A stretch of 64,000 nt of DNA from Thunnus maccoyii (Eukaryota > Chordata > Actinopteri > Scombriformes > Scombridae): the NCBI RefSeq assembly GCF_910596095.1, contig NC_056548.1:12921151-12985150 (forward strand), given 5' to 3'. Position numbers and translations under genes: made by a program. Positions 2,861 to 35,084 of this stretch are shown one piece after another. Under the pieces are notes generated by a model. It searched no databases. It saw nothing but the letters and a program-made list of their open reading frames with translations, and was not told the DNA's origin. How positions within the stretch are numbered: the stretch's first letter is position 1; every line of letters begins with the position of its first letter.

Positions 2861-3753
2861 CCAACATCACCTTTGATGATGTCCTGAACTGGAAAAAAAC
2901 AAACAAAACTTTTGCAGTGCTTACAAAAAGAATAAAGTCCCCAGTCACTCATTGTAAGACTTATATTTATAATATTGTATATGTGTACATTTACGGTATA
3001 TCAGCAAAAGATTCAGTGTAAGGCTTTTGCAATTATGCCACTCTAGGTGTTACATTAAATTAAATATACAAATTATCTAACAATTTATGCACAAATTTTT
3101 TGTTCACACCATACAAAGAAACTGGCATGACTGTGTGAGTCACTACTCTTCAGGCTACTGTGACTTTGAATAGTAAAAACAGTGTACACAACAAAATTGT
3201 ACAAATTGTATGAGCATGCAAATGTGTTCACAGTGCGTAGGTGGTCATTCTCCAGTCAGCTTGTAGATTTAAATTAGCCAGTCAAAGGAAGGAGACAGAA
3301 GGGAGGAATATTACATGGATATTAAATATGTTTAGCATTAAAATATAACAAATCAGTAAAAGTAAGGTCATGTAAGAGTACAGAGCAAAAGATTCAGACA
3401 CATACTGTATATACTGTATATCTACAAACATGCACAGAGGGCTGAGAAACATCTCACATTAAATTGTCATTACTGCTACACAGAGACACAAAGTCTGTTT
3501 CCATCTCCCACTACTTCCATTATCTTAGTTTGTGTCCATTACTTCTCCAATATAGAACACAATTTGAAAGGCTGTTTAATTATGTAAGTGTTATTATTGT
3601 GTAAAATCTAAAAGCAATTCTGATGAAACAACAATTAGAGCATGAGTTTTAGGATGGCAGATAATGTAATTCTCACTCTCATATCCTGTACATTGTACAA
3701 CTTCATCCAAGTAGTACCAGAAGCAGTCCAAAATGTAAACAGAATGTCATGAG

Positions 3754-4140
3754 TCGCATCTGATCACTTGCATTAAAGATGATCACACTGTCTCTTTCAT
3801 TTGTCCTGATCTAAGTAGACATTGCACACTGTTGAGAAAGGCAAGACACACTAAAACCTGGCCTCCAAAAGCCTTGTCCATCAAAGAGTGTGTTGAGGAA
3901 GGTTTAAGACTGGGGAAAGACCCCAACACAGTAAGAGGAGTAGTGAGTAGTAGTAGTACTACTGAGTTATGTTCCATCTGGAGCAAAAAAACATGAGAGA
4001 GAGGGAGTTCAAATCCCAGCATACTGAGCAGGATCTGATGGGCTACCTTCCAAGGGGTACATCATGCATATAATCAAGTAAATGCTATTATCTTGTACTT
4101 CACCTCTCTGTCTACGTGAACATGATGCAGGTATGACTCC
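3754..4140 (-). pseudogene. Decayed bradykinin receptor relic (TM4/ECL2 to C-terminus), copy 1
   Basis: The minus strand retains scrambled but ordered pieces of the intact receptor at 26460-27569. These are an ECL2 part near 4040-4140, an ECL3/TM7 part reading ...DKAFGGQ..LAFLNS (compare GGQFSAYLAFLNS), then a C-terminal SGQMKETV followed after a frameshift by VIIFNASDQM (compare VVIFNANDQM at the intact C-terminus). The stop codon after DQM has become CGA. The TM6 region is largely replaced by 'agtagtagtagtact' repeats. The DNA 3' of the relic (about 2990-3750) also resembles the 3' flank of the intact gene (25800-26459). It lies about 110 bp beyond the stop of the receptor at 4251-5277 and has an exact counterpart in the second duplicate. 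Confidence 0.75.
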
Positions 4141-4250
4141 AAATATTTTTCTTATCTCACTTCTGGGTCACACCCACTTCATCATGTGAAATTGTTCAAA
4201 AAACATAGACCATAAACTCTCAAAAAATCACAATCTTGCAGATCAGCTTG

Positions 4251-5277
4251 TCAGCAGACATCATTAGCTCGAACACTGCTTATTAGGTTGCTGCGTGTGG
4301 AGGTGAGGCTTAAGATCGTTGTTCTCCTAATGGACCGCTGACTGAAGAGTTCCTGAACTTTTTTCTGAAAGTTCTTTCCTACAATGATGTAGAGGATGGG
4401 GTTGAGAACGCTGTTGAAGAAAGCTAAGTAGGTGAAGATCTGGCTGCAGATGTATAGGATGGCTTGAAGGTCACATCCTTTCAGGATTTCAACTCTTTGG
4501 AGTGAGTCTAGTATCTTATAAAGGTGGAATGGCACCCAGCAGATCAGGAACGCCACGAGAACGACCAGCACCAGAGTGGTCGCCTTGTGGTCTGTGTTCT
4601 GTTGAGTGTTCAACCCCTCCACTGACCGGTTCTTTAAAGCTTGAATAATCTTGACAGTGCACCAGGTAATGATAGAAATGGGGAGGATGAACTTGAAGAT
4701 GATCAGTATCCCTTCACACAACAGATGTATAGTGCCATTTGGGTAATTATGCTGGCAATGGTGACCTTTTACTTCCCTGAAGTAGAGTATGGGGACACCC
4801 AGGAGCAACCCGAAACCCCACACCAGCAGACAGCACAGTTTGGCAAACTTTGGCCGACGAAACCTGTCATGAGACAGCGGGTGCACCAGTGCCGCATAAC
4901 GATCCATCACGATCAGAACAAGAAAGTAGATGCTGCAGCAGACATTCATATTGATGCCCAGGTTGACCAGTCGACACAGGTGATCACCAAAGGGCCACTT
5001 ATAATTGTGGGTTACATTCACAGCCCAGAAGGGCAGACAGGACACCAGGACAAGGTCGGCAGCAGCCAGGTTGCTCAAGTAGATCTCAGCCACGGTGAAG
5101 GCCTTCTTGTGTAAGTAGAAAACCGTAAGGACAAACACGTTAAACACAATTCCCAGCACAGCGATGAGCCAGATATATATGGCCATCCATTCCTTGGAAT
5201 TGTTAGGAGGACAATCAGTGCCATTGGTGCTGTTATGATCTATATTTACAGCTGTGGTGCTGAAATTAGCAGGAACA
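4251..5277 (-). CDS. bdkrb2: B2-type bradykinin receptor-like, main exon, duplicate copy 1
   Basis: Seven-transmembrane peptide receptor expected at the plasma membrane, binding kinins and coupling to Gq. With the start exon at 9321-9340 it gives a 348-residue protein. Seen: N-terminal sequons at about residues 11, 22, 25 and 32; TM1 with GIVFNVFVL; TM2 with NLAAADLVL (Asp ~81); Cys ~108 pairing with the ECL2 Cys; DRY at ~132-134; TM6 with FLICWVPFH; TM7 with NSVLNPILYIIVGKNF; and a Ser/Thr-rich tail with an RRTT motif. The IYLSNLAAADL and VGKNFxKK stretches match B2 receptors. The exon begins after a pyrimidine-rich 'ctctatccacag' acceptor. The frame also stays open upstream to 5444, giving a 397-codon ORF, but those 5' codons are intronic by comparison with the paralogue at 34046-35084. 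Compared with copy 2, changes cluster in ECL2/TM5. DRY is followed by Ala-Ala instead of Val-Ala. Confidence 0.88.
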
Positions 5278-6184
5278 CTGTGGATAGAGGAAGGCAAACA
5301 AGACAAAACATTATTATAATCATAACGTGGAATACTGAGAAACACTGACTTTTGAGTAATACTGAATACTAAATGGGATACTGAAAAACCCATTTTATTT
5401 TTCTTAGTGCAGCTCCCAAAGATGTTTGTATTGGTTGTGGACAAAAAACTGTGGCAAAATGTAGGCTCAACAGGAATTCATTTTATAAGTATCCTGTCTG
5501 GTTGTTTTTAATAAACTAACTTTATTAAAACAGTAGAGCAATCCTTATCCAATAACTTTCACATGTTTGTCAAGGGTTCATACTTTTTTTGATACTTAAA
5601 AAAAACTGTTTTGGTGCTGCTGGCTGACACACAATTTAACAAAGTAATGAAGGCCAAGCAAATAAGCCATGTAGAAGGCTACCATTACCAGACTACCATA
5701 AGACATGGTAGCGTGCAATGGAAAAAGTGAAACAAAAATCACTCAGATGTTTCCACAAACATTTATTGGCCAAAGAAAAAAACAAAGCAAACAATGCAAT
5801 GATATCTGCAAAACATGAGTGGGTGGGAGCTTCCTTGACGATGAGTGATGAAAGATAACATTTACTGGGATACCATGGTGGCCTCAGGGCTAAAAGCCTT
5901 TGATCCACATTTTGCTGGTTCCTGTCTGGCTGTAGCTGGCTTTTCAACAATAACCTTACTGATTTATTTATCAAGTACTATTGTCTGTGTGTTTTCTGTT
6001 GTACATATTCCATAAACAATTTAGAATGCAATTTAGAATATCAAAATGTGTTATAGTTACTGTATCTATAGTTTTATTCATCTGTATGGGGCTCCACAAC
6101 CGTACTGTACTGTATATGAAGTACTCATTTAATTTCATTTCATTAATATAACATATAATATAAAAGAGCGAAAGAGCAGGGCAT

Positions 6185-6218
6185 GGGGGGTACCAGATTT
6201 GATGATCTGGTACCCCCC
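6185..6218. repeat. Perfect inverted repeat, 14-bp arms
   Basis: Arms 6185-6198 (ggggggtaccagat) and 6205-6218 (atctggtacccccc) are separated by 6 bases. They sit in the segment found only in copy 1 and could mark the end or core of a small mobile element. Confidence 0.8.
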
Positions 6219-6504
6219 TGGTACTCAACTTCAAGCTGTAGCCTATTACACATTTCTGACTAGCTATAGCCCGGCAGTATTTGTAGTACAGTACGTAATG
6301 AATGACCTGTGATGGTGAATCGGAAGTGGTCAGTATTTTAATTGCTTTAAACCAAACTAATTGGTATTATATTTAAATTTCAGGTGTATATTGTGTTGTT
6401 AGCAAATTTGTGATTGTTGCTTAGACATGTCATTTTATTAAACCCCTTTATTACTGTATGCGAAAATGTCTCCTGAAAGCAAATTAAGACTTCAGGTTGT
6501 TTTT

Positions 6505-7354
6505 CAAGAGGACCTATTATGCTCATTTCAGCTCTAAATTTTTAATTTTGGACTCCACTAGAGTAGCTTTGCATGATTCACAGTTCAAAAAACTCCTTAT
6601 TTATCTTATACTGGCCCTTTATGCAGCCCCTCAATATACACGGTTTCTCTTACGCTCCATTTTAGCTCCTGTCTCTTTAAGCCCCCCCTCCCGATGAGCC
6701 CACTCTGTTCTGATTGGTCAGCTTTACGTATCGGAGTTCTGTAATTTAACGTCAATGCAAACCAAACATTTCCTGCTTTGCTGCTTCAAATTAAAAGCTT
6801 TTAAATGACTTACTAATGGGAGACCTTTATTGTGAGGAATTCGCAGGAAGTAAAAACATGTTCCTCACTGAATTAGCGACACTAAAAAATGGCCGAAACA
6901 ACATATGGAGCTATTTGAGCTATTTGTTCAGCGGATCAGTTAGAAATAATGCATGGAGGAATAGTACAGGCAGAAACAGCCACAGTGAGATGTTTTATGA
7001 GGAGCTGCAGACAACCAGCACACCTCCAACAGATAAACTACTTATTTTACTTTGCTGTGCTGTGTAATGGCATCGTGGCTTGGCGTAACTACTCCCGGAG
7101 CAGAGCAGCGAACTTGTGCGCTGTGCACGTAGCAGATGTCCATATAAAGGAAATCCGTCATGAACTGACATCAGCTCCGGCTGAAACTTAGTGTTCAGAG
7201 CAGTCTGAAGCTGCTGCTTTTTGCTAACAGGGATTACTGCTACATGCATTTACCTCGTTATTTGACACGTCGGCCACTTTTAAGATGGACATCCGACATT
7301 GTGACATTATATATATGTCTGAAAATAAGGAAAAGCACAATACGTCCCCTTTAA
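6505..7354. mobile_element. Non-autonomous DNA element (MITE-like), GGGACCTATTATGC ends
   Basis: The left end 'caagaggacctattatgctcatttc' and the right end 'aaaagcacaatacgtcccctttaaag' are imperfect inverted repeats, about 850 bp apart. The termini resemble those of the element at 9625-11130. It lies within the copy-1-only part of the intron. The short ORFs inside show no recognisable protein domain. Confidence 0.55.
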
Positions 7355-7411
7355 AGATGAACCAAAGTGTCAGTAACAGCTGAGCTTCTCTCTATATGAA
7401 AGCGCGTAATC

Positions 7412-7480
7412 TCTGTCTATCTGTCTGTCTGCCTGTATATATGTATGTATATATGTATGTATGTCTGTCTGTATGTTTGT
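7412..7480. repeat. Microsatellite, CTGT/GTAT tetranucleotide
   Basis: Imperfect run of ctgt, ctat, gtat and atgt tetranucleotides. It is the counterpart of 19361-19423 in copy 2, with different repeat lengths. Confidence 0.85.
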
Positions 7481-9320
7481 CATTTGCATATCTCGAGAAC
7501 CGTTCATCTGATCTACTTCACACTTGGTGGGTGTATTGCTGGAGATACAAGGGAGTGCACTTTCCAATTTTGGCGCAATTTGGACACGCAACACATTTAG
7601 TATTAATAAACTTGGAATAAGCAAGCAAAGTGAGCCGCTCAGCTCTGTGTCTGAGTGCAGCGGGGACTGTTATGTCAACACTGTCACATCACAGCGGGAT
7701 GGGGTTTCTGGGCTCTGACTCGCTGAGCGGGACAACGACATGCACCCTGCTCAGTTAAACTGCCTGAGAGAGACGAACAAGCATACACAAGAGACAAAAC
7801 AAGATGAGACAGAGGCAGTAAAACCACCCAGTAACAGCACGGACACGTTTGATCAACCAAAATCAACCAGTGAAAAGCTGTAAACTGCTTCTACAGTTCA
7901 ACTTCAGTTTAGTCTAACTGAAGTTTCTGTCTAAATTTAAATCATTTAATTTGTGAAATCCTTATCGTTTTAATTGATTCGATTGTCAGTTGATACATAT
8001 ATATGTGGTTCTCAAGAAATAATAAGTAAGCAGCCTGTTCCGAACAGGCACGTTTTGAATGGGCACTGCACTAGTTTTAACTAATAAGGATGTTTTGTAA
8101 TCAAATATTAATCTTCTTTTACATAATTAGGAGAAATATTCATATAACCCCATCCACCCATGGATCAGGAGCAGAATATTATTCTATATGCTTCATTGTG
8201 ACATGAATATTATTTGTAATGTAAATTTGTTTGTGAATCTCAGGCATCATTTTTTCATGAAAATGCTGTCAGCAGCAGCCTGAAGAGCACAGAGACACAC
8301 AGATAGGTAAACCGCAGGCATTTCTCAGATGGTTAAATGATAGTTATGAGCATTGCTGTGGCTCTGTCATGAGACTCTTGAGTTGTATCATCCAAATCAA
8401 CAAACTGAAAGAAGAGCAGAGCCACAGAATGTTTGAAGGTTTGAAAACCTTACAGCAGATAGTTGTGTTAAACACAGCAGCAGATAACCTAGAAGTTATT
8501 TTTCTTTGAACATTTATTAGGAAAATCTATCATGTGTTAGTTTTAAATACTAATTTTAATCTGCATTAATAAAATAAAATGTAAAACATCTAATTGAAAT
8601 CAGAAAAATTCAAGCCTTTTTTAGGCAAGTTATATCAGCAAATACATATTCATTGAAGTAAGTGCTTTGGAGAGTTACATGTGTGCATTTGAAAGAGAAA
8701 AGAGAGATCAAATTCATACTGTTTATTTTGGCTGCCTTTTATGTTTAAAAAAATAAACCTACGCCCCTGACTTAAGTTGCCAAAGTGCAAGTGCAGGAAT
8801 GGTTATCTATTTGTCTACCAGTAACAGCTGTCATTAACCACTTGTATGCATATGCCACGGTACCATTTGTTGAGTACGACTTTTCCTTTTGTATTACTAT
8901 TTAGCACTTTACAGAAACTTAATCTTTGACATTTACTGCATCTACAGTTTCAGAATAATTTCATCTACAGTATATTTGGAGCCACAACAGTGTAAAAATG
9001 CTTTCAATTCAATTGAATCCAAAGTCAATTTCAATAGACTTTATATTTGTGCATCAGCATAAAACACAGTTTAACATTTTTAAATACTCTTTATACTATA
9101 TATATGCATCATTACTGTTTATTTAAACATTAAAGCTGATTCTTGCTGACATCTAACACTAAGCATGATGACTCAAATAGTGAAAGAACAACAGTGCAAG
9201 TCCATATGTGACATATTGTAACCACAAAAATACCGGGTTTGTCTAGATTTAACCCTTTTCTGTGAGGATAATGGTAAAAACAGAAAAGTAATATACAGAC
9301 CAAATAATGCTTGTACATAC

Positions 9321-9340
9321 CTTGTAGGCAGATGAGCCAT
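9321..9340 (-). CDS. bdkrb2: Start micro-exon of bradykinin receptor duplicate copy 1
   Basis: 20-nt coding part of exon 1. ATG at 9340-9338 encodes MAHLPT plus the first two bases of a Ser codon, then AG|GTATGT donor. Joining to 4251-5277, whose exon starts with the single T that completes AGT, keeps the frame and gives MAHLPTS-VPANFSTT. The same exon with the same donor phase occurs at 21439-21458 and 37241-37260. In copy 2 the same upstream frame contains TAG nine codons before this ATG, which supports this ATG as the start. Confidence 0.8.
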
Positions 9341-9426
9341 TTCTCTTAAGTAAGTCCAGATGTGGAATGTCCAGATACACAGCCACACTGTAGTCCTCCT
9401 TTCTGCTACTGTCTTCTGTCTGTCTC

Positions 9427-9433
9427 TGACTCA
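9427..9433 (-). promoter_or_regulatory. AP-1-like site upstream of copy 1 start exon
   Basis: Minus-strand TGAGTCA lies about 90 bp upstream of the micro-exon ATG in a block conserved among three paralogues (CTCTGACTCACTCTCT on the plus strand). The CRE-like TGATGTCA next to it in the other two copies is disrupted here. The assignment rests on motif match only. Confidence 0.4.
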
Positions 9434-10023
9434 CTCTCTTAAAGGAGAGAGGGACTGTTAAGTGATAATGTTCTTGAGAATGCCAGCTGCCTTGCTGTAT
9501 TACCCCACCTTCCTGCTAATTCTGCCTCCTGTTTTTTTCCCTCCTGCACTGTATACACAGAATGTCATTATGTTCTCAGAGATGTTCTTTCTTAACATAT
9601 ACGATATAAGGTCAGATTGTTTTTTTAAAGGGGAAATATTATGATAATGGAATGTAATGGAATAAACAACTGATTCTGCTCTGATCCAGAGCAGTTTACC
9701 GGTGGGAAGAGTTTGTTTTCTAAATATTTTGGGTTTAAGTGGATTTATCTTCAATCTTGCTTCTCACGTAGCTAGAGCAAAGCTAACACCGGAGTCACAC
9801 ACCACCTCAGCTGCTGTCATCAACAATTAACATCTTAAATGCTGGTGAGTTATATAATTTTATAAACAATAACATTGCAGCCTTATTTATGCCTTTAGAT
9901 TACATTATTTTGAGATATTTTCAGACATTTTACAAATCAACATCATGATGTAGTTATTTCGGAATCCTTTTGATTCATTTATTGCAATTAAATCACAGCA
10001 AAATCTAAGTTTACACCCAAATC

Positions 10024-10971
10024 CAGCATCCAGCTCGAATCAATCCAACTCATGCCCACAAAGTCTGCCCGAAATTTGAGTGTCATGATTGATGACCAAC
10101 TAACCTTTAAGGTTCACGTGGCCTCAGTCGCTTGATCACGTCGATTCACCCTGTACAACATGAGGAAGATCAGTCCCTACCTGTCTGAGCATGCAGCACA
10201 ACTCCTGGTACAGGCTCGTGTTATATCACGCATTGACTACTGCAACTCCTTACTGGCAGGCCTCCCTGCATGTACACTTAAACCTCTGCAGATGATCCAG
10301 AACGTGGCAGTGTGTCTGGTCTTCAATCAGCCCAAAACAGCACATGTCACCGCGCTGTTGATATCCCTCCACTGGCTCCCAGTTGCTGCCTGCATCAAAT
10401 TCAAAACCCTGACACTTGCTAACAAAATAGCAACTAAAACAGCTCCTGCCTACCTGAACTCCCTCATTCAGGTCTACACTCCCTCCCACCCACTATTCTC
10501 TGCCAACGAAACGCGCCTGGTATCACCACCACAACAGGGCCCTAAGTCACTAGCTAGACTCTTCTCCTCTGTAGTTCCCCAGTGGTGGAACGAGTTACCA
10601 AACTCTGTTCGATCTGCAGAGTCCCTCTCAATCTTTAAGAAAAGACGAAAGACCAAGCTCTTTCGCAAACACCTCTGCACTTGATGAACTGTGGGGAGAG
10701 AAAAAAACAAAAAAAGAAAAACAAAAAAAACCCCCCAAAAACAAAAAAACCCCCAAAAAAACCAAAACAAACAAACAAAAAACCCCCCCTACTTCTATGC
10801 ACTCTAATCATTGCCTTGTTGCACTGCCTGTTGTCATCTACGTCCTATTGGGCCCAAACTTAAGCTTTATGGCACTTACTCGTGTTGTTGTCTCCTGACT
10901 AGATCCTTGCTTGTGTTGTATCAGTCTCATATGTACGTTGCTTTGGATAAAAGTGAAATGTAATGTGATGT
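10024..10971 (+). mobile_element. L2-like non-LTR retrotransposon, 5'-truncated 3' end
   Basis: The plus strand encodes the end of a LINE reverse transcriptase polyprotein: ISRIDYCNSLLAGLP, LQMIQNVAVCLVF, LHWLPVAACIKFKTL, APQWWNELP-like (VVPQWWNELPNSVRSAES), FKKRRKTKLFRKHL. Part of this is an intact 174-codon frame at 10160-10684. It ends with the L2-typical 'ctttggataaaagtgaaatgtaatg' tail. Copy 2 of the duplication has the uninterrupted sequence at about 22220, so insertion followed duplication. The flanking 'aaat' on both sides is a possible short target-site duplication. Most of the element, including the RT core, is missing. Confidence 0.85.
10697..10790. repeat. A/C-rich low-complexity tract inside the LINE
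   Basis: Runs of A broken by runs of five to seven C, at the start of the LINE 3' UTR. The minus strand has three G-runs of five or more. This looks like simple-sequence expansion. Confidence 0.8.
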
Positions 10972-11337
10972 AAAATCGACCGTTCTGAACAGAGCTATTT
11001 AGACAGGATGAGAAGGTTGCTGTGGTGCTTAATATTTGATGTATTTTGACCAAAGTATGTCAGAGATTTTATTAAGACCCCAGAGAACTGTGTTAACTTG
11101 TGGAAAAGAGGTATAATATGGCCCCTTTAATACAAATGACCTGGGTGGGGAAGTTACTAAACAAATTTAAATGACATTTTATCTCCCATCTGTCTTTTTA
11201 TAAATATCATACTGTAATGCTAGAAAATGTTAATGACAATTCAGTAGTAATACCCAGGAAACAACAAGCAGCTTCCAAGCTAATTACAGGAAGAGAGAAG
11301 AGGTTATATATTTGTGTGAACCAGCTTTTTATGAAAG

Positions 11338-14300
11338 GGTAACACTTCATTTTACAGGTCTGCAAATTTCATGGTAATTAGGTGATAATTAGCAAGTAAC
11401 CTCTTTGAAATTTCTTTGAAATTACTCCAAAATGTATCTCCAATTTCATGGTAAGTAGATATAATAAGCAAGTAACTTATTTTAAATTTTGTTGAAATTA
11501 CCCCAAATTTACCCCAGCATTTACCTTGAATTTCATGGTAAGTAAGTGAGTTGTTGCAGCTTAATTTCCAAGTAGTTTCTGTCTAATTTCTATTGAGCGG
11601 AACCCTATATTGAAGTGAGTTGTTGCAATTTCCAAGTAATTTCTGCTTAACTTCTGTGGATCTTACCAGCTTAACTTCCAACTAGTTAGGGCCCGAGCCC
11701 AAAGGGCAAAGGCCCTCTTGTATTTAGGGTCTGAGCCCCAAAGGGGTATTGTATTTCCTGTGTTTGTTTCTTTCTTATTATTCTTTCTTTATTATTACGC
11801 CACTACAACCTTAAATTTGACCCCTAAACATGCTCAAAAACTCACCAAATTTGGCAGGCACATCAGGTTTCGTGAAAATTTGATAAAATGTAAAAATTAA
11901 CCGCCAAAGTGCCAAAATGTTCTTGAGAGCGCCACCCATGTAACGAATATGGCCGCCACGGCCCACAGGAATGTCGGAGAGAGATCGAACCAAAACTCAA
12001 TTATTCGTCTCATCAAGACCTACACATCATGTGCTGACACCCCTGACCTAAATCCAACAGGAAGTCCGCAATAAGCCCATCAAAGTACGACTTTGCGCCA
12101 ATTTTGGACCTTGAATAAACACTATCTCCTCCTAGGGCGTTAATGGTATCAGCTTCAAACTTGAATACATGACTTATGACAAAGTTGAAGTGCCACATCG
12201 CACCTTACAATGGAAACCAATGGGGAGGCAATCTCTGAGCATGGACTTTGTGCCAAACTGAGGCGTCTGATGTCTAAACTATAAGTCAGACCACTTTCAA
12301 ACCCGTATCAATGGATTTGCGATGAAAATTCCTACTAAAATGTGATTTTTAATGTGAGATTTGGCCAAAGTCATGGAATTTATGAGGATATTTCACAAGA
12401 GGAGTACTCTGAAATCCTTCTCTCCAGCTGAGAGGGAGAAGGAGGGAAGAAAGTGGGGGGATGGGTGTCGGGGACGGTTAAATGGAGCTCATTTTTGAAG
12501 GATACAGCAGAAAGGTCTGTATACAGTACATTATATACAAACTTTGAATGAAGTTTGGTGTTATTATCATTTATTTTACAATAATTATGAGTCTTATATG
12601 TATAATTCAGTAGTGGGGATGACCTATGAGGGGAAGGGAAAAAATTGTCTTATTGTCTCTACACACCTGACAGCACACATTTCAGTCAAACTTTGACCAG
12701 GTCATGTGGGTTAAAAGTCTTTACTTTTCTAAAAGTAGACTTGATGAAAATTAGGAAATTAATTTGTTTTACACACCCACTCATCAAGAGTTTTCAATTT
12801 ACCAATTGAAATTCAAGTGAATGGGCCCAAAGCTTGCATAATTTTGATGCCACAGGTGTGAGCAAGACAGACATGTCTCACCCTGCAGAAAATTGTCATC
12901 CTCACACCGTTGAGATTTGATGTTTCGCCATGACAGAGGAAATTGCTATAACTTTATTGTACATGCTCCAGTCTGCACCAAACTTCACATGTTTGTAAAG
13001 TCAGACCTGTCAGCCCAAGTCTGGAGACATCTACATGCCCCTGACAGAAGCCCTTGGACTGTTCCGCACCCTGACATGCGCAAAGGTGCGAAGGCCCGTT
13101 CAACGCTGCTTGCAGCTTTAATTCTTTCTTTATTATTACGCCACTTCAACCCTTAATTTGACCCCCTAAACATGCTCAAAAACCCACCAAATTTGGCACG
13201 CACATCAAGTCAAAATGTAAAAATTATCCCCCAAAGTGCTAAAATGTGCTCTTTAGCGCCACCTATGTATCAAAAATGGTGGCCACGGCCCATAGGAATG
13301 TCATAGAGAGATCGAACCAAAACTCAATTATTTGTCTCATCAAGACCTACAAATCATACGCTGACACCCCTGACCTAAATCCAACAGGAAGTCCGCAATA
13401 TGTCCATGAAAGTATGACTTTGTGCCAATTTTGGACCCCGATCAAACGCTATCTCCTCCTAGGGCATTAATGGTATCGGCTTCAAACTTTAATACATGAC
13501 TTATCACACTGGGCTGAACAAAAGTTATTAAAAACTTTGCAATAACTTGAACGGTTTAGATTTTGTAAGCCCTGAAAGTTGTAGTGCCACATCACCCCTT
13601 ACAATGTAAACCAATGGGGAGGCAATCTATGGGCATGGACTTTGTGTCAAACAAAGGCTTCTGATGTCTAAACTATGAGTCTGATCACTTTCAATGGATT
13701 CCCCACAAAATTTCCTACTGCAAAAAGGGGATTTTCAATGTAAGATTTGGCCAAAATCATGGGATTTATGAGGAGATTTCACAAGAAGAGTGACATTCTC
13801 CTCTCCAACTGAGGGGGAGAGAGAGAGAATAGGAGGGGGGGATGGGTGTGGGGGTTGAATGGAGCTCATTGAGTGAGAGTGACAGTTTAGTGATAAAGTG
13901 CTGCAGAAAAATAAAATCAAAACTAAAATTTGTAGCTCTGTACTGCAGTTTTTCCTTTATTACGGTTCGAGCACCTAGCGGTTCACTCACACTCTCCATT
14001 CAAATATATGAGTATTTTTCTGTGTCCAGCTACAGTTACTTATTGTCTCTACACACCTGACAGTACACATTTCAATCAAACTTTGACCAGGTCATATGGG
14101 TTAAAAGTCTTTACTTTTCTAAAAATAAACTTGATGAAAATTAGGAAATTAATTTGTTTTACACACACATTCATCAAGAGTTTTCAATTTACTAATTGAA
14201 ATTCAAGTGAATGGGCCCAAAACTTGCATAATTTTGATGACACAGGTGTGAGCAAGACAGACATGTCTCACCCTGCAGAAAATTCTCATCTTCGCATCGT

Positions 14301-15413
14301 TGAGAATTGATGTGTCGCCATGACAGAGGAAGGTGCTATAACTTTATTGTACATGCTCCAGTCTGCACCAAACTTTACATGTTTGATAAGAGTCCCGGCC
14401 TGAACACGTCTACATGACAATATTCCATCAGTGATGCACACTGGCTGAACAGCCTTATGAAATAGCAGGTAAGCAGCCCCAGCAGCAGGCAAAACAGTGG
14501 ACAAAGGAAGTGATGTTTATCTCCTTCTTGCACTGTCTGAAAACAGCTGAAGACATCTACATGCCTGTGACAGAAGCCCTTCGACTGCATTGGGCTTGAT
14601 GTGCACGGAGGTGCGAAGGCCCGTTCAACGCTGCTTGCAACTTGCAGTTTTAATTCATGTGTTTGTTTGTTTCTTTCTTTCTTATTCCGCCACTTAAACC
14701 CTTAATTTGACCCCCTAAACATGCTCAAAAACTCACTAAATTTGGCACGCACATCAGGTCTGGTAAAAAAATTGATAAAATATAAAAATTAACCCCCAAA
14801 GTGCCAAAATGTGCTCGAGAGCGCCACCTATGTAACTAAAATGGCCGCCACGGCCTGTAGGAATGTTCTAGAGAGATCAAACCAAAACCGACTTATTCAT
14901 CTCAAATCATACACTGACACCCCTGCCCTAAATCCAACAGGAAGTCCGCAATTAGCCTTTCTAAATAAGACTTTTCCTCAATTTTGGCTCCTAAACAAAC
15001 GCTATCTCCTCCAAGGGCGTTAATGGTAATACTTCAATTTACTGGCCTGCAGAAGTTAGGCAGAAACTACTTGGAAATTAAGCTGTAACAACTCACTTTA
15101 ATTTAGGGGTCTGCTCAGCAGAAATTAGACAGAAACTACTTAGAAATTAAGCTGCAACAACTCACTTACCATCAAATTCAAAGTAAATGTTAGGGTAAAT
15201 TTGGGGTAATTTCAACAAAATTTAAAATAACTTACTTGCTTATTATATCTACTTACCACGAAAGTTCAGGGTAATTTCAAAGAAGTTACTGGCTAATTAT
15301 CACCTTATTACCATGAAATTTGAGGTAAATTTTGGGCTAATTTCAAAGAAATTTCAAAGAAGTTACTTGCTAATTACCATGACATTTGCGGACCCGTAAA
15401 ATGAAGTGTTACC
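11338..15413. mobile_element. Composite element with about 350-370-bp terminal inverted repeats (foldback-like)
   Basis: The left arm (about 11338-11690) starts ggtaacacttcattttac. The right arm (about 15042-15413) ends with the inverse, gtaaaatgaagtgttacc. Both arms are built of repeated blocks such as 'ttcatggtaattag', 'agcaagtaact' and 'aagtgagttgttgcagctta'. The 3.35-kb centre is filled by two full and one partial unit of another fish repeat family. No transposase is visible. The target-site duplication is unclear (possible 'gaaa'). Confidence 0.75.
11691..15035. repeat. Tandem units of a fish interspersed repeat family (plus orientation)
   Basis: Units start near 11691, 13122 and 14653 (the last truncated at about 15035). 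Each runs from a 'tttctttcttattattacgccact' region through 'ccctaaacatgctcaaaaactcacc', 'gcgccacc.atgta', 'atcgaaccaaaactcaatta', 'ccaacaggaagtccgcaat' and 'gctatctcctcctagggcgtt' to 'cccgttcaacgctgcttgcagctttaatt'. The first unit has an extra 'agggcccgagcccaaagggc' leader. The same family is inverted at 59600-63660. No intact ORF was found. Confidence 0.75.
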
Positions 15414-16080: not shown

Positions 16081-16994
16081 CATATACCAACATCACCTTT
16101 ATATGAAATTTCATTTTTTAAATGATGTCCTGAACTGGAAAAAAAAAGACCTTTTCCAGTGCTTACAAAAAGAAAAAAGTCCCCAGTCTCTCATTGTAAG
16201 ACTTTATAATATTATATATTATTATAACAATATGTATACATTTATGGCATGTCAGCAAAAGATTCAGTGTAAGGCTTTTGCAATTATGCCACTGTAGGTG
16301 GTTACATTAAGTTGAATATACAAATTGTTTAACGATTTGTGCACAAATGTTTTGTTTACACCATACAGAGAAACTGGCGTGACTGTGTGAGTCACTACTT
16401 TTCAGGCAGTGTACACAACAAAATTGTACAAATTGTATGAGCATGCAAATGTGTTCACAGTGCAAAGGTGGTCATTCTCTAGTCAGCTTGCAGATTTAAA
16501 TTAGCCAGTCAAAGGAAGGATGCACACTGCCAGAGACAGAGGGGAAGAATATTACATGGATATTAAATATGTTTAGCATTAAAATATAACAAATCAGTAA
16601 AAGTAAGGTCATGTAAGAGTACAGAGCAAAAGATTCAGACACACACTGTATATACTGAATATCTACAAACATGCACAGAGGGCCAAGAAACATCTCACAT
16701 TAAATTGTCATTACTGCTACACAGAGACACAAAGTCTGTTTCCATCACCCACTACTTCCATTATCTTAGTTTGTGTCCATTACTTCTCCAATATAGAATA
16801 GAATTTGAAGGGCTGTTTAATTATGTAAGTGTTATTATTGTGTAAAATCTAAAAGCAATTCTGATGAAACAACAATTAGGGCATAAGTGTTAGGATGGCA
16901 GATAATGTAATTCTCACTCTCATATCCTGTACATTGTACAACTTCATCCAAGTAGTACCAGAAGCGGTCCAAAATGTAAACAGGATGTCATGAG

Positions 16995-17432
16995 TCGCAT
17001 CTGATCACTTGCATTAAAGATGATCACACTGTCTCTTTCATTTGTCCTGATCTAAGTAGACATTGCACACTGTTGAGAAAGGCAAGACACACTAAAACCT
17101 GGCCTCCAAAAGCTTTGTCCATCAAAGAGTGTGTTGAGGAAGGTTTAAGACTGGGGAAAGACCCCAACACAGTAAGAAAAGTTGTGTGACAGCATACACC
17201 AGTGCTGTGGCCTCAACACCTACAACCCCTCTCTTTTTACAGTAGGTAAAGCCCTGAGTTATGAGCCATCTGGAGCAAAAAAACATGAGAGAGAGGGAGT
17301 TCAAATCCCAGCATACTGAGCAGGATCTGATGGGCTACCTTCCAAGGGGTACATCATGCATATAATCGAGTAAATGCTATTATCTTGTACTTCACCTCTC
17401 TGTCTACGTGAACATGATGCAGGTATGACTCC
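16995..17432 (-). pseudogene. Decayed bradykinin receptor relic, copy 2
   Basis: Same relic as at 3754-4140 but slightly more complete. Its minus strand still reads VEATALVYAVTQLFLLCWG near 17160-17230, closely matching the TM6 segment TKATVLVYAVTLLFLLCWC of the intact receptor at 26460-27569. TM7 and C-terminal pieces and the same lost stop codon (ATG CGA) follow. Upstream TM1-TM3 are absent. Both relics share the damage, so decay began before the duplication. Confidence 0.8.
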
Positions 17433-17542
17433 AAATATTTTTCTTATCTCACTTCTGGGTCACACCCACTTCATCATGTGAAATTGTTAAAAAAACATAG
17501 ACCATAAACTCTCAAAAAATCACAATCTTGCAGATCAGCTTG

Positions 17543-18566
17543 TCAGCAGACATCATTAGCTCGAACACTGCTTATTAGGTTGCTGCGTGTGGAGGTGAGG
17601 CTTAAGGTCGTTGTTCTCCTAATGGACCGCTGACTGAAGAGTTCCCGAACTTTTTTCTGAAAGTTCTTTCCTACAATGATGTAGAGGATGGGGTTGAGAA
17701 CGCTGTTGAAGAAAGCTAAGTAGGTGAAGATCTGGCTGCAGATGTGTAGGATGGCTTGAAGGTCACATCCTTTCAGGATTTCAACTGTTTGGAGTGAGTC
17801 TAGTATCTTATAAAGGTGGAATGGCACCCAGCAGATCAGGAACGCCACGAGAACGACCAGCACTAGAGTGGTCGCCTTGTGCTCTGTTCTTGGAGTGTTC
17901 AACCCCTCCACTGACCGGTTCTTTAAAGCTTGAATGATCTTGACAGTGCACCAGGTAATGATAGAAATGGGGAGGATGAACCTGAAGATGAACATTATCC
18001 CATCACACACCAGAAGTGTAGTGAGATCTGGGTATTTAAGATAGCAATAATCATCTTTTACTTCCCTGAAGTAGAGTGTGGGGACACCCAGGAGCAACCC
18101 GAAACCCCACACCAGCAGACAGCACAGTTTGGCAAACTTTGGCCGACGAAACCTGTCATGAGACAGCGGGTGCACCAGTGCCACATAACGATCCATCACG
18201 ATCAGAACAAGAAAGTAGATGCTGCAGCAGACATTCATATTGATGCCCAGGTTGACCAGTCGACACAGGTGATCACCAAAGGGCCACTTATAATTGTGGG
18301 TTACATTCACAGCCCAGAAGGGCAGACAGGACACCAGGACAAGGTCGGTAGCAGCCAGGTTGCTCAAGTAGATCTCAGCCACGGTGAAGGCCTTCTTGTG
18401 TAAGTAGAAAACCGTAAGGACAAACACGTTAAACACAATTCCCAGCACAGCGATGAGCCAGATATATATGACCATCCATTCCTTGGAATTGTTAGGAGGA
18501 CACTCAGTGCCATTGGTGCTGTTATTATCTATATTTACAGCTGTGGTGCTGAAATTAGCAGGAACA
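17543..18566 (-). CDS. bdkrb2: B2-type bradykinin receptor-like, main exon, duplicate copy 2
   Basis: Near-identical paralogue of 4251-5277. With the start exon at 21439-21458 it gives 347 residues. Seen: TM2 NLAATDLVL, MDRYVALVHP after TM3, TM6 FLICWVPFH, TM7 NSVLNPILYIIVGKNF, RRTTT in the tail. Outside ECL2 it differs from copy 1 at about a dozen residues. Within about 25 residues of ECL2 and early TM5 (after REVK) about 15 differ, including loss of the NGT sequon that copy 1 has there. The loop between TM5 and TM6 is one residue shorter (GLNTPRTEHK against GLNTQQNTDHK). The acceptor is 'ctctatccacag' before 18566. The frame stays open to 18733, but those codons are intronic. Predicted kinin receptor; ligand not shown. 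Confidence 0.88.
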
Positions 18567-19360
18567 CTGTGGATAGAGGAAGGCAAACAAGACAAAACAT
18601 TATTATAATCATAACGTGGAATACTGAGAAACACTGACTTTTGAGTAATACTGAATACTAAATGGGATACTGAAAAACCCATTTTATTTTGCTTAGTGCA
18701 GCTCCCAAAGATGTTTGTATTGGTTGTGGACAAAAAACTGTGGCAAAATGTAGGCTCAACAGGAATTCATTTTTATAAGTATCCTGTCTGGTTGTTTTTA
18801 ATAAACTAACTTTATTAAAACAGTAGAGCAATCCTTATCCAATAACTTTCACATGTTTGTCAAGGGTTCATACTTTTTTGATACTTAACTGTTTTGATGC
18901 TGCTGGCTAACACACAATTTAACAAAGTAATGAAGGCCAAGCAAATAAGCCATGTAGAAGGCTACCATTACCAGACTACCATAAGACATGGTAACATGCA
19001 ATGGAAAAAGTGAAACAAAAATCACTCAGATGTTTCCACAAACATTTATTGGCCTAAGAAAAAAACAAAACAAACAATGCAATGATATCTGCAAAACATG
19101 AGTGGGTGGGAGCTTCTTTGACAATGAGTGATGAAAGATAACATTTACTGGGATACCATGGTGGCCTCAGGGCTAAAAGCCTTTGATCCACATTTTGCCA
19201 GTTCCTTTCTGGCTGTGGCTGGCTTTTCGGAAGTGGTCAGTATTTTAATTGCTTTAAACCAAACTAATTGGTATTATATTTAAATTTCAAGCGTATACGG
19301 TGTTGTTAGCTAATTTGTGATTGTTGCTTAGACATGCCATTTTATTAAACCAAGTAATCT

Positions 19361-19423
19361 CTGTCTGTTTATCTGTCTGTCTGTCTGTATGTATGTATAT
19401 ATGTATGTCTGTCTGTATGTTTG
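19361..19423. repeat. Microsatellite, CTGT/GTAT tetranucleotide
   Basis: Counterpart of 7412-7480, with longer ctgt and shorter gtat runs. Confidence 0.85.
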
Positions 19424-19439
19424 TCATCCGCATATCTCG

Positions 19440-21438: not shown

Positions 21439-21458
21439 CTTGTAGGCAGATGAGCCAT
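21439..21458 (-). CDS. bdkrb2: Start micro-exon of bradykinin receptor duplicate copy 2
   Basis: 20-nt coding part, ATG at 21458-21456, encodes MAHLPT plus two bases of Ser, with donor AG|GTATGT. Spliced to 17543-18566 it restores MAHLPTS-VPANFSTT in frame. The upstream frame is closed by TAG nine codons before the ATG. Confidence 0.8.
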
Positions 21459-21544
21459 TACTCCTGAGTAAGTCTAGATGTGGAATGTCCAGATACACAG
21501 CCACACTGTAGTCCTCCTTTCTGCTACTGTCTTCTGTCTGTCTC

Positions 21545-21588
21545 TGACTCACTCTCTGAAAGGAGAGAGGAACTGTTAAGTGATGTCA
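21545..21588 (-). promoter_or_regulatory. AP-1-like and CRE-like sites upstream of copy 2 start exon
   Basis: Minus-strand TGAGTCA at 21545-21551 and TGACATCA at 21581-21588, within a block conserved with the paralogue at 37.3 kb and, in part, with copy 1. AP-1 control is known for mammalian kinin receptors; its use here is inference. Confidence 0.45.
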
Positions 21589-21722
21589 GATAAAGTTCTT
21601 GAGAATACCAGTTGCCTTGCTCTATTGCCCCACCTTCCTGCTAATTCTGCCTCCTGTTTTTTTTCCTCCTGCACTGTATACACAGAATGTCATTCTTAAC
21701 ACGATATAAGGTCAGATTGTTT

Positions 21723-26459: not shown

Positions 26460-27569
26460 TTACATCTGATCATTTGCATTAAAAATGACCACAGTCTTAA
26501 TTTGCTCCGGTCTGTGGATGTAAGTGGACACAACAGAGCGCTGATATGTGGTCATATCTGATCCCCTGTGATGATATCTAGTCCGCCTGTAGATGGCGCT
26601 AACCTTCCTTCTGAAATATTGCCCGGAGAAGACATACAGCAAAGGGTTGAGGGCACTGTTGAGAAAGGCCAGATACGCTGAAAACTGGCCTCCTATGTCT
26701 AGAGTGTGAGCCCACAGCCTCTCATCCAGCACATGGACGTCACAGAGTGTGTCGAGGAAGGTGAAGACCTGGTAGGGACACCAACACAATAAGAATAGTA
26801 GTGTGACAGCATATACCAGTACTGTGGCCTTGGTGTTGTTACTGTCATGAAAAGGTATAGTCTCTCTCCTCCGTGCTAAAGCTTTGATTATGGTCCCACT
26901 GCTGAAAAAAATGATCAGAACAGGGAGTACAAAGCCCATCACATTATTCAGAATTTGGTGGGCCAACTTCCAAGAGCTGTCATCACTATAATCCAGTATA
27001 CAGGATGTTGTATTATACTCCTCAAAGAACTTCACCTTTCTGTGAATAATGACTGGCATGCTCAGTAGGAACCCTAATAGCCACAGGAAGAAGCAGATCA
27101 CCTTGGCATACAGTGTCCGTCTCAGCCACCTGGCCTTCATGGTCTTCACCAGTGCTAGATAGCGGTCAACACTAATCATGACAAGGGTGTATATGCTGGT
27201 GTAAAAATTGATGATGATGAGGGAGTTGACCAATTTACATAAGGCATCTCCATATGCCCAGTTAAAGTCATTGCGGATGTACATCGCCCAGAAAGGGAGG
27301 CCACACAGGAGAATAAAATCAGCCAGTGCCAGGTTGCTCAGGTAGATCTCTGCTACAGTTAGTTGATCCTTATGAGTGAGGAACACACCCAGGACAAAGC
27401 CGTTAAAGAGAAGGCCTAACAGGGATAAGGTAAAAATGTACGGGGGAATGATGGTGTGGACGATCTCCCATACTGCAGAGACTGGAGACTCTGATGGACC
27501 GGATGGTAGGGATGCACTGCTGTTTTCAAACCACAGTGGCGTCACAGATACAAGGTTCACTGGCTCCAT
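26460..27569 (-). CDS. bdkrb2: Divergent B2-like bradykinin receptor, intact
   Basis: 369-residue seven-transmembrane receptor in a single coding exon. Seen: N-terminal sequon NSS, TM1 LLFNGFVLGVFL, TM2 NLALADFILLCGLPFWA, SVDRYLALVKTM (DRY, then a VKTM run as in B2 receptors), ECL2 with YNTTSC (sequon and conserved Cys), TM6 LLFLLCWCPYQVFTFLDTL, TM7 LAFLNSALNPLLYVFSGQYFRRK, and tail ending FNANDQM. The SGQYF after NPxxY is unusual beside the VGKxF of its neighbours. The ATG lies three bases after a possible acceptor (TGTAG|CCC ATG), so a non-coding first exon is likely. It is the parent type of the relics at 3754-4140 and 16995-17432. B2-like is the best guess; it could be a fish-specific kinin receptor class. 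Confidence 0.85.
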   Translation of the reverse strand: MEPVNLVSVTPLWFENSSASLPSGPSESPVSAVWEIVHTIIPPYIFTLSLLGLLFNGFVLGVFLTHKDQLTVAEIYLSNLALADFILLCGLPFWAMYIRNDFNWAYGDALCKLVNSLIIINFYTSIYTLVMISVDRYLALVKTMKARWLRRTLYAKVICFFLWLLGFLLSMPVIIHRKVKFFEEYNTTSCILDYSDDSSWKLAHQILNNVMGFVLPVLIIFFSSGTIIKALARRRETIPFHDSNNTKATVLVYAVTLLFLLCWCPYQVFTFLDTLCDVHVLDERLWAHTLDIGGQFSAYLAFLNSALNPLLYVFSGQYFRRKVSAIYRRTRYHHRGSDMTTYQRSVVSTYIHRPEQIKTVVIFNANDQM

Positions 27570-27572
27570 GGG

Positions 27573-29795: not shown

Positions 29796-30788
29796 TCAGA
29801 TGGGCGTTGGAATTACCAGACTCCAGCATTGCCGTTTCCCCCTGCACAGCGTCCGTCTGAACACTTCCCTCGCCTTCTGTTTAAAGTGCTTTCCAACAAT
29901 AACATACAGGAAAGGATTCAATGAACTGTTACTGAAGCCAAGATAAGTAGCTAACTGGTTGCCAATATCCAACACATAAGCCCATGTACACCCAGAGATG
30001 ACTTCATAATAATCCAATGTGTCCAAGAAGATTACTATTTGGTAAGGCAACCAGCAGAGGATGAACACAGCCAGGACGACGAGCACGAGATACACCGCTT
30101 TCCTTTCCACACTTCCTCTGCTGCCTTTTCTCATCTTCTGGCTGCTTTGAAGGACTTTAATGATATGGTAACTACAGAAGGATACAATAGGAACAGGGAT
30201 AAGGAAGCCAACTATGCTGACAGTCATGTTGTAACGCAGTCTCCAGCCATCATGGGGATATGCGAGGTAGCACGCGTCAATGCCCAGATCAGGGAAGAAC
30301 TGCACAGAGCGGAAGAGGATAGCAGGGAAGCTGAGTAAGATGCCAGCAATCCAGATACTGAAGCAAATCCCCCGTGCCCAGAGTGCTCGTCTCTCCCTTC
30401 CCTGGGACAGGGGTCTGGTGAGGGCCAGGTATCTGTCCATGCTCACAAGCGTAAGGAACAGCACGCTACAATAATAATTCATCCCAATGACAATGTTGAC
30501 AAGCTGGCACATGGGCTTCCCAAATGTCCAGTGGAACTTGTTGATAATGGTTGCCACCCAGAATGGCAGGCAGGAAACCATGAGAAGATCAGCTACTGCC
30601 AGGTTGCTCAGGTAGATGTCAGCCACGGAGCTGTGCCGCTTCTGGAGACAGAACACGTAAAGCACAAAGGAGTTGCCGATCACACCAAGAAGGCTGATGA
30701 TGGACATGTAGGCAGGCTGCATGGTGTGAACCCAGTCCCATGCGTCTGTGTGGTTACAAATTAGCTCAGCTCTTGAGGCATTCGCCAT
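29796..30788 (-). CDS. bdkrb1: B1-like bradykinin receptor
   Basis: 330-residue class A receptor in one exon. Seen: N-terminal sequons NAS and NHT; DAWDWVHTMQP entering TM1; GVIGNSFVLYVF; TM2 NLAVADLLMVSCLPFW; SMDRYLALTRPL (DRY); ECL2 with FPDLGIDAC and PHDGW; TM6 FILCWLPYQIVIFLDTL; TM7 LATYLGFSNSSLNPFLYVIVGKHF. The ECL2 pattern (PDLxIxAC, then PHxxW) and the DIGxQLA..FxNSSLNP segment resemble mammalian B1 receptors more than B2. The start is certain: an in-frame TGA lies two codons upstream. A likely acceptor (TGCATTCACAG) before 30817 points to a non-coding first exon. Unlike mammals, where B1 and B2 are one each side by side, here B1 lies between B2-like genes. Confidence 0.85.
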   Translation of the reverse strand: MANASRAELICNHTDAWDWVHTMQPAYMSIISLLGVIGNSFVLYVFCLQKRHSSVADIYLSNLAVADLLMVSCLPFWVATIINKFHWTFGKPMCQLVNIVIGMNYYCSVLFLTLVSMDRYLALTRPLSQGRERRALWARGICFSIWIAGILLSFPAILFRSVQFFPDLGIDACYLAYPHDGWRLRYNMTVSIVGFLIPVPIVSFCSYHIIKVLQSSQKMRKGSRGSVERKAVYLVLVVLAVFILCWLPYQIVIFLDTLDYYEVISGCTWAYVLDIGNQLATYLGFSNSSLNPFLYVIVGKHFKQKAREVFRRTLCRGKRQCWSLVIPTPI

Positions 30789-32116
30789 AAGTCACTCACC
30801 AGCTGAGCCGGAGATCACTGTGAATGCAGCTGCACAGAAACAGCAATTTTAGAGGTAGAAAGATACAGTTGTGCTCAAAACTAAATGGCAAAACATATAC
30901 CAGTAAAACCTTTTAACTGTGTCAACACAGGTTTTATGCATTTGTTGCTACCTTCACATCAGTATCTGAGTTCTAAGTGTGGAGGGACAGTTGATTTAAT
31001 GGAGTGTAGATAATGGTGGTTTATCAGATCAGAGTACACAGCACCCACATGCCATTGTCAAATAGAGGAGTCTTAGCAACAGATAAAGGGTGAATTAGTG
31101 TAATGTGGGAAACTGCCCGCTGCCAAATGTGGGACAACTAAGCTCAAATGCATCTATCTCTTTTTCTACCAAATGCTAATGATTAGGACTGCTGTCAAAT
31201 TAAACCTGGAGTGTCATGTAATTGAAAACACACAACTCCACACATGTGACATACTTGCCGTGAAATCTAGTCAAAGCTCAATGATTTTCAGTAATTTAAT
31301 GTAAAGGATATCAATTTGTCATAAATGAAGCAATGCTGCCAATTGTTATCAGATTGTGTTTATGATATATTCATGCCTCAGAATGGTAAAACATGTTTCA
31401 TATTTTTTATTTAAGTCAATTTTTCATTGTCCCACTTTAGAAAATGCGGGACAGTCATATGTTGTTAAATTGGTTAAATATGCATTTAAGTACATTAAAT
31501 TTGCAGTAAGAATAGTTATTCAGTTATTCTTGTAATGATTAATTTTAACTTATTTTTAAGCAAGTTGCAAATTATATTATTTCTAATATTAATACATAAT
31601 ATAATACTACATTACTACACTATCTGTAACAGCAAAAACATTGTAATTACTGAATTACAAAATGTGGGCATGCACTTTTGCCTTTAGTGTAACTAACCAG
31701 AGAAGTTTTTATTGTTTGAATTAAGGTGATTTAGACCTTTCAGTGAGTGTCCCAGATTTCAGCCTGAACTGAAATCTGGAGAAACTGCTCGCATAAAATA
31801 CAGCAGAACTGAAATTTCCACATTAGGAAATGCACAAAATCTGGGACAATTTGAAACAGGGAACTTTTTTTTTTGCCATTTCTTCTCCAAGTGTGATATC
31901 TGCATTCTCTTTTCTGATATGATTAGAAAACACCTTGGGGATTTCAGAATGGTATTGGGTGTGGATATAATATATTGGCTTCATATCGAAATATATTGCT
32001 GAAGTGCCAATTGCAGAAATTGCCCCACATTACTCAGTTCACCCTACAGTATCTGATTGAAAAAGGCCACATATTTATAACTTCATGGATTTACAAACAA
32101 ATACAATAATTAACAG
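30789..32116. other. Intergenic upstream of the B1-like receptor
   Basis: Contains the presumed 5' UTR acceptor at about 30818 and presumably the promoter. I could not place the first exon. No repeat family was recognised with confidence. Confidence 0.35.
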
Positions 32117-34045: not shown

Positions 34046-35084
34046 TTATACCGAAGTCTTCAGTGTCGAAGACAGGTTTGAACGTGTGGAATCAGAGGTG
34101 GCTCTTCTCTTAATTGCCCACTGTTTGAAGAGTTCCTGAACTTTTTTCCGGAAGTTCTTCCCTACAATGACATACAGGACGGGGTTGAGAGTGCTGTTGA
34201 AGAAGGCTAAATAGGTGAAGATCTGGTTGCAGATTTCTAGGGCGGAGATGAGGTCACACCCTCCCAGGCCTGCAGCTCTCAGGAGCAGATCCAGTGTGGT
34301 GACCATATGGAAAGGCACCCAGCAGATCAGGAATGCTAGGAGGACGACCAACACCAGAGTGGTGGCCTTCTGCTCCGTTTTCACAGCATTGAACCTCTCC
34401 ATTGCCTGGTTCCTCAAAGCCTGAATAATCTTGACAGTGCAGAATGAGATAATTGAAAAGGGGATGATAAAGCTAACAATGATCAACATCCCATCGCAGA
34501 GCAGCTCCAAAGTCCGGTTTGGGTAGTCCAGGATGCATGCATGAACATCATAATCTGGGATATATTTCACTGCCCTGAGGATGAGCGCGGGGACACTCAG
34601 GAGCAAGCCGAAACCCCACACCAGCAAACAGCCCAGTTTGGCATACTTCGGCCTGCGCATTCTGCCATGGGACATCGTATGCACCAGTGCCACATAACGA
34701 TCTATGCTAACCAGAACAAGGAAGTAGATGCTGCAGTAGGCGTTCATCTTGATGCCCAGGTTGACGACTTTGCACAGGAACTGACCAAAAGGCCAATCAA
34801 AGCCATTGTATATATTGACAGCCCAAAAGGGCAGACAGGACACCAGGACAAGGTCAGCAGCAGCTAGGTTGCTCAAGTAGATCTCAGCCACGGTGCAGGC
34901 CTTCTTGTGGAGGCAGAAAACCATCAGGACAAACACATTAAACACGACACCCAGCACGGTGATGAACAGGATATACACCGGCTGCATGCTGTAGAGCCAA
35001 TCCCAGTCTTCTCCACTGTGACAATGAGTTTCATTGGTGTTGTTGTGGTGTCCATATATGGCTGTGGTGCTGAAGTCTGGGACA
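34046..35084 (-). CDS. bdkrb2: B2-type bradykinin receptor, main exon
   Basis: With the start exon at 37241-37260 this gives 352 residues. Seen: N-terminal sequons (NNT, NET); GEDWDWLYSMQP entering TM1; GVVFNVFVLMVF; TM2 NLAAADLVLVSCLPFWA; SIDRYVALVHTMSHGRMRR (DRY plus a segment close to mammalian B2); ECL2 with VHAC and a NRT sequon; TM6 LLAFLICWVPFH; TM7 NSTLNPVLYVIVGKNFRKK. The tail has an ATSDSTRSNLSST Ser/Thr cluster, a candidate phosphorylation site for receptor desensitisation. The only upstream Met in frame is internal (MQPVY, at TM1), so the conserved N-terminal codons need the upstream exon. The acceptor is CTCTCCACAG before 35084. It is the likely ancestor-like member of the set that gave rise to the two downstream copies. 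Confidence 0.9.

Follow-up and report, generated by a model that had tools for sequence, protein, structure and literature searches.

Amino-acid change concentrated in the ligand-facing region of two young tandem B2-like kinin receptors of Thunnus maccoyii

How two adjacent receptor genes that are nearly identical over most of their length come to differ most strongly around the second extracellular loop (ECL2) is the question raised by a kinin-receptor cluster in Thunnus maccoyii. A sequence-only reading of the window, by which we mean the whole 64-kb stretch of DNA analyzed here, had proposed positive selection or local gene conversion from another receptor. The analyses below support the first of these proposals and speak against the second.

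Five kinin-receptor-like exons lie in the window, all on the minus strand, and are referred to as c1, c2, b5, b4 and c3 (Table 1). The DNA searched was the Thunnus maccoyii assembly, comprising 782 Mb in 54 contigs. PF00001 (7tm_1) was matched by all five exons in a profile search, and human B2R was the best solved relative of each. Against solved structures, c1 scored 261 bits with B2R, 201 with B1R and 145 with AT2R; c2, with 261 bits for B2R and 200 for B1R, is likewise nearer B2R. In a tree of ten proteins, c1 and c2, which share 92% of their residues, are sisters (support 100/99), c3 joins next (97/99), and the stem leading to the pair (0.52) is four times the length of the c3 branch (0.13). 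All four cysteines of the two B2R disulphides (C3.25–ECL2 and N-terminus–C7.25), as reported for the human receptor, are carried by c1 and c2, and the corresponding bonds are predicted to form. Structure models of the two proteins proved unusable (mean pLDDT 47.1 for c1 and 56.2 for c2).

The splice acceptor and exon join of the main c1 exon were identified. A short upstream coding exon probably precedes the main exon in c1, c2 and c3, judging from a start codon and donor conserved in c1, c2 and the aligned block upstream of c3, in a phase compatible with the exon 2 acceptor. If the tandem receptor genes of rockfish share such an exon, the six-helix forms reported there may represent incomplete gene models. 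The left end of the window additionally holds a partial seven-helix receptor on the minus strand (3-752).

Table 1 Coordinates of the features discussed, in positions of the window
Feature	Position	Strand	Basis
Left unit of the tandem duplication	2876..11249		Self-comparison blocks of 86-97% identity and divergence profile; outer limits approximate
c1, main coding exon of B2-like kinin receptor	4251..5277	minus	PF00001, E 6.3e-57; human B2R, E 1.5e-76; frame intact
c1, divergent tract, residues 238-262, from ECL2 (first residue past REVK) into the extracellular half of TM5	4692..4766	minus	15/25 residues and 18/75 bases differ
c1, residue 342 = 7.32 (D311), Y in c1, H in c2; reported contact outside tract	4452..4454	minus	Alignment
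c1, residue 328 = 6.62 (R297), R in c1, T in c2; reported contact outside tract	4494..4496	minus	Alignment
c1, probable coding exon 1 (start codon, six residues, GT donor)	9321..9340	minus	Conservation, phase
c2, main coding exon of sister copy	17543..18566	minus	PF00001, E 1.5e-56; human B2R best solved; frame intact
c2, same tract	17981..18055	minus	Alignment to c1
c2, probable coding exon 1	21439..21458	minus	Conservation with c1
b5, more distant kinin-receptor-like gene	26460..27572	minus	PF00001; human B2R best; tree
b4, more distant kinin-receptor-like gene	29796..30791	minus	PF00001; human B2R best; tree
c3, closest other paralogue, outgroup	34046..35084	minus	Human B2R best, E 3.2e-97

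Residues are numbered in the stop-to-stop frame of the c1 exon. The two main exons differ at 28 residues in 341 comparable codons. Of these, 15 fall among the 25 residues of the tract; the other 316 codons account for 13, and ICL3 also carries a 3-base indel. By the Nei-Gojobori method, the 18 base changes in the tract split into 17 nonsynonymous (58 sites; dN 0.372) and one synonymous (17 sites; dS 0.061), whereas the rest of the exon (codons 96-381) carries 10.5 nonsynonymous changes in 589 sites and 3.5 synonymous changes in 191 (dN 0.018, dS 0.019). Every tract codon that differs also changes its residue; the one synonymous step that was counted is hidden in two-base codon changes. The ECL2 cysteine, tyrosine and proline are preserved in both copies. 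A glycosylation sequon, NGT at residue 247, is present in c1 and missing in c2, and its loss in c2 is the simplest reading, since c3 has NRT at the aligned site. The sequence-only reading had estimated by eye that about 15 of 25 residues differ after REVK and about a dozen in the other ~320, that base changes there nearly always alter the residue, and that one copy has a sequon the other lacks; exact counting bears out each of these estimates. A second, smaller group of differences lies in ICL3 and the start of TM6 (4590-4604 versus 17882-17892), where three residues and the 3-base indel distinguish the copies; it includes position 6.30 (D/E), reported as a Gq contact in human B2R.

When the 28 residue differences were shuffled over the 341 codons, none of 200000 trials placed 15 of them within 25 codons, the maximum being 11. 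At the DNA level, 19 of the 47 differences across 3962-5860 fall inside one 103-base stretch, a concentration matched by 0 of 100000 shuffles (maximum 16). As the tract was picked because it stands out, these shuffles serve as a fair guard on its position.

Both copies sit in tandemly duplicated units, the right partner spanning approximately 16122-22493, with indels and repeats within the units. Between c1 and c2, 9 of 571 positions differ in the adjoining intron (5283-5860) and 4 of 289 just 3' of the gene, giving 13/860 for the near noncoding DNA in total. A further 3' stretch differs at 23/746 positions, and the distal upstream duplicated DNA at 7780-9914, which includes exon 1, more of that intron and sequence upstream, at 97/2041 (up to 4.75%). 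The claim that the surrounding DNA, introns included, is nearly identical thus applies close to the exon and not farther out. Noncoding DNA near the gene (3962-5860) is about threefold less diverged than the distal upstream DNA (p = 1e-5) and also less diverged than the distal 3' DNA (p = 0.04), which suggests that conversion between c1 and c2 may have homogenized the gene body, with uneven mutation or constraint as alternatives. Related repeats of ~80-97% identity, many of them inverted, occur at 11721-15037 and 59732-63655.

Measured against either neutral yardstick, the tract has accumulated far too many amino-acid changes. The 17 nonsynonymous changes compare with 0.9 expected from near noncoding DNA (P = 1e-16) and 2.8 expected from distal DNA (P = 6e-9), and a 14-fold correction for the choice of window still leaves 9e-8 at worst; per site, the excess is ~19-fold over near and ~6-fold over distal noncoding DNA. 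In a pairwise codon model with kappa fixed at 1.5 or 2.5, a neutral rate shared across the exon gave a tract omega of 31-35 (LRT against 1 of 45-49, p = 3e-12 to 2e-11). When the tract was given its own rate, which allows for a hotspot or an older tract, omega was 9.0-9.6 (p = 0.013-0.019). A three-gene model including c3 returned a tract omega of ~20 on c1/c2 (LRT 44.8, p = 2e-11). For the rest of the exon, omega was 1.4-1.7 in the pairwise model, with no significant departure from 1, and 0.84 in the three-gene fit. The evidence base for selection is a single gene pair in a single genome.

Polarization of the 18 tract changes with c3 assigned six to c1 and six to c2 and left six undecided. 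Across residues 236-260, the c1-c2 comparison gives 14 residue differences, c1-c3 gives 10 and c2-c3 gives 13, although outside this segment c1-c3 amounts to 104 differences in 311 residues. A dN/dS near 1 together with equal divergence in the flanking introns, the outcome that the sequence-only reading had set against its own interpretation, was looked for and is not what the data gave. Its suggestion of positive selection is instead supported by the nonsynonymous excess over neutral change, the codon models, the shuffles and the comparison with other receptor pairs.

That comparison drew on 33 GPCR loci in tandem clusters of the genome, which form 66 within-cluster pairs; the 49 pairs with 1-45 residue differences were kept as controls and are not independent of one another. 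The worst 25-codon window holds at most 11 differences in 45 of these 49 pairs. The other four reach 16 in 25 codons at c1-numbered codons 317-341 (TM6-ECL3), with 38-39 differences overall, and amount to a single comparison of two near-identical gene types (L034/L039 versus L035/L040, contig C10). The share of differences falling in one window is 15/25 for c1/c2 (codons 96-381) and higher, at 10/13, for L048-L049. In 6 of 49 control pairs the clustering was never equalled in 2000 shuffles, so that clustering as such is not rare in this genome.

The ratio of window pN to the pS of the rest is 16.0 for c1/c2 and at most 5.74 in 48 of 49 controls; it is undefined in L034-L039, which has five synonymous and four nonsynonymous changes in one window, has zero synonymous changes elsewhere, and resembles an imported tract. 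Counted inside the 25-codon window alone, pN/pS comes to 5.0 for c1/c2 and to at most 3.83 in 47 controls, being undefined in two (five nonsynonymous, zero synonymous). It is therefore the excess over neutral change, not the clustering, that sets c1/c2 apart.

The worst window begins within codons 218-240 (ECL2/early TM5) for 20 of the 49 controls, which indicates that a milder form of the c1/c2 pattern is common in the genome. Worst windows at this place were seen in L049/L050 (C21), L036-L038 and L042 (C10), and L027-L030 (C19), where L027 is closest to chemerin-like receptor 1. Separately, L027 versus L028 (C19, ~11 kb apart) and L035 versus L040 (C10, ~63 kb apart) show 0 amino-acid differences over 278 codons, consistent with very recent duplication, conversion or assembly duplication.

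The divergent positions were compared with contact and anion-trap residues given for human B2R in PMC8821558. Of the 15 residues drawn from that paper, 11 could be aligned; N57, on which two alignments disagree, and Y201, D203 and E204, which fall in a gap, were excluded. Of these reported contacts, c1 and c2 differ at 5 of 11, compared with 23 of the remaining 330 positions (p = 9e-4), and outside the tract 2 of 8 differ, against 11 of 308 others (p = 0.04). Within the tract, the affected contacts are the residue following the ECL2 cysteine (V212 in human B2R; Q in c1, Y in c2), the next one (I213; H/L) and 5.35 (E221; H/L). Replacing I213 with alanine in human B2R raises the kallidin EC50 150-fold (PMC8821558). 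The statement that this loop contacts the kinin peptide, made from family knowledge, accordingly holds for several of the changed positions as far as the published contacts extend.

According to PMC8821558, the anion trap of human B2R consists of six acids: D203, E204, E5.35, D6.58, E7.28 and D7.32. Of these, D6.58 is the only acid retained at its aligned place in c1/c2, and the D203/E204 segment corresponds to an alignment gap, the ECL2 of the pair being six residues shorter than the c3 loop. With one of six trap acids left, we infer that the ancestor of c1 and c2 had already shifted away from canonical kinin binding. Two acids of c2, at 238 and 239 in the shortened loop, might stand in for those lost. 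In c3, E5.35, D6.58 and E7.32 are retained; since it keeps more of the kinin-binding acids, c3 resembles an ordinary kinin receptor and c1/c2 appear derived. Relative to the human B2R described in PMC8821558, the pair has in common the fold family, the disulphide cysteines, R4.64, D6.58 and Q7.36, and differs in its shorter ECL2 and in the replacement of E5.35, E7.28 and D7.32.

We consider it probable that the ligand pocket of this young B2-like pair was reshaped by positive selection, through point substitutions that arose in c1 as well as c2. The changes are clustered, their nonsynonymous excess holds over every yardstick used, both copies changed, no donor was found in the assembly, and ligand contacts are hit. 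The sequence of events would be as follows: a tandem duplication produced c1 and c2 as a young pair of B2-like kinin receptors from an ancestor in which most of the kinin anion trap had presumably been lost by then; amino-acid-changing point substitutions would then have been fixed repeatedly in both copies in ECL2 around and after the disulphide cysteine, in the outer turns of TM5, and at 6.62 and 7.32; and the rest of the protein would have stayed mostly near-identical, with ICL3 as a smaller exception. On this basis the present-day c1 and c2 would have unlike ligand preferences or affinities, and selection for ligand discrimination may have driven the divergence of the pocket. Several points count against this reading, which is based on one pair in one genome: the own-rate test reached only the modest significance given above for a tract chosen because it was conspicuous, the rest of the exon is weakly constrained, the ICL3/TM6-start differences, with their reported Gq contact, do not suit a purely ligand-side account, a single kinin sequence was recovered for the two receptors, and comparable clustering occurs among the control pairs.

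Among the rival explanations, the one that survives best holds that the copies are older, that the exon and its edges were homogenized by conversion, and that the tract kept older differences because conversion there was selected against. The lower divergence of near-gene than of distal noncoding DNA agrees with it, and the ~1 synonymous change at the 17 sites of the tract would allow a divergence as high as ~29%; the tract may indeed be as old as the duplication, the remainder having been overwritten by c1/c2 conversion. However, synonymous divergence in the tract is ~1/17 between c1 and c2 and ~11/17 between c1 and c3 (p = 8e-4), which places the divergence of the two tracts after the split from c3. 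Even at the distal rate the expected nonsynonymous changes fall well below those seen, and positive selection is still needed; we therefore regard this rival, which alters the timing and not the need for selection, as rather doubtful.

Transfer of the tract into one copy from another receptor gene would fit a short, bounded block. It has a known precedent in the conversion of CCR5 ECL2 by CCR2 (PMC2880985), and the control pair L034-L039 resembles a converted tract. Against it, a genome-wide search that passes over very frequent words matched 131-base probes from each tract to c1 and c2 alone, and eight candidate genes each shared 7 or fewer of the 18 differing bases with either copy. Conversion from c3, b4, b5, a C17 receptor (L007) or the GPCRs L010-L013 is thus unsupported by base matching, and no donor for a third-gene tract was found in the assembly, which may be incomplete. 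A diverged donor should also have carried synonymous changes, of which ~1 in 18 was seen. Conversion from another receptor consequently appears very improbable.

We see similarly little chance of an artifact, either errors in sequencing or the tandem assembly of two haplotypes from a single gene. The assembly does contain other receptor copies with few or no differences between them, as such an origin might produce, but the window contains no N, the frames are intact, the key ECL2 residues are preserved, the changes are almost all nonsynonymous, and the flanks are up to several percent different with large indels; even as alleles, the copies would imply a pocket of high polymorphism, again suggesting selection. 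An account that dispenses with positive selection, by relaxed constraint or a mutation hotspot at this place, would suit the near-neutral omega of the rest of the exon and can be given almost no credence, as the neutral rate is a ceiling that the tract exceeds against near and distal DNA alike, and a hotspot predicts ~24% synonymous changes where the tract shows ~1 among 18 (P = 0.044 for one or fewer, weak by itself).

If positive selection did reshape the pocket, the nature of the ligand becomes relevant. A pattern search of the genome recovered one Trp5-type kinin sequence, of the [Trp5,Leu8] form, in an open frame on contig C7, and no match to the Phe5-type pattern; the kinin-bearing frame, used as a protein query, found only itself at E up to 1. 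These two patterns and that frame define the scope of the search. An adjoining frame matches a cystatin domain at 20.9 bits, under the curated cut-off of 22.2, and the C7 frame probably belongs to a kininogen gene. [Arg0]-bradykinin has been suggested as the sole kinin effector in teleosts (PMC3835742). Because a single kinin sequence was found, a second kinin does not explain two specificities; divergence toward one is unsupported, and partition of affinity, another peptide or foreign peptides may be involved instead.

It is possible, though we would not expect it, that c1 and c2 have ceased to be bradykinin receptors in the ordinary sense and are diversifying sensors of another endogenous peptide or of foreign kinin-like peptides, their body kept uniform by conversion and their pocket under recurrent selection. 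In either case, a sole kinin effector has been suggested for teleosts (PMC3835742) and a single matching kinin gene was found in this genome, which nevertheless has two receptors with pockets that outpace neutral DNA. As two receptors alike except mainly at ~15 pocket residues, c1 and c2 form a compact natural experiment and are suited to tract-swap assays of the role of ECL2 in peptide selectivity.

Tandem expansion of B2-like kinin receptors in fish is shared with the black rockfish Sebastes schlegelii, for which eight tandem Bdkrb2 genes are reported, with one copy 78-84% alike to four others and with differing expression (PMC7968187). Compared with the rockfish genes as described there, c1 and c2 are more alike overall and their change is concentrated in the pocket; the main text of that paper does not mention 'selection', 'loop' or 'gene conversion'. 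We found no earlier report of selection or conversion in kinin receptors in the open literature, most subscription papers lying outside this scope. A further parallel is offered by the mammalian chemokine receptors CCR2 and CCR3, for which positive selection in extracellular parts and conversion between clustered neighbors have been described (PMC2880985). The tests reported there compared orthologues, whereas ours concern one pair of copies, and conversion among the CCRs can copy ECL2 between genes, whereas in c1/c2 ECL2 is the divergent part and no donor was found.
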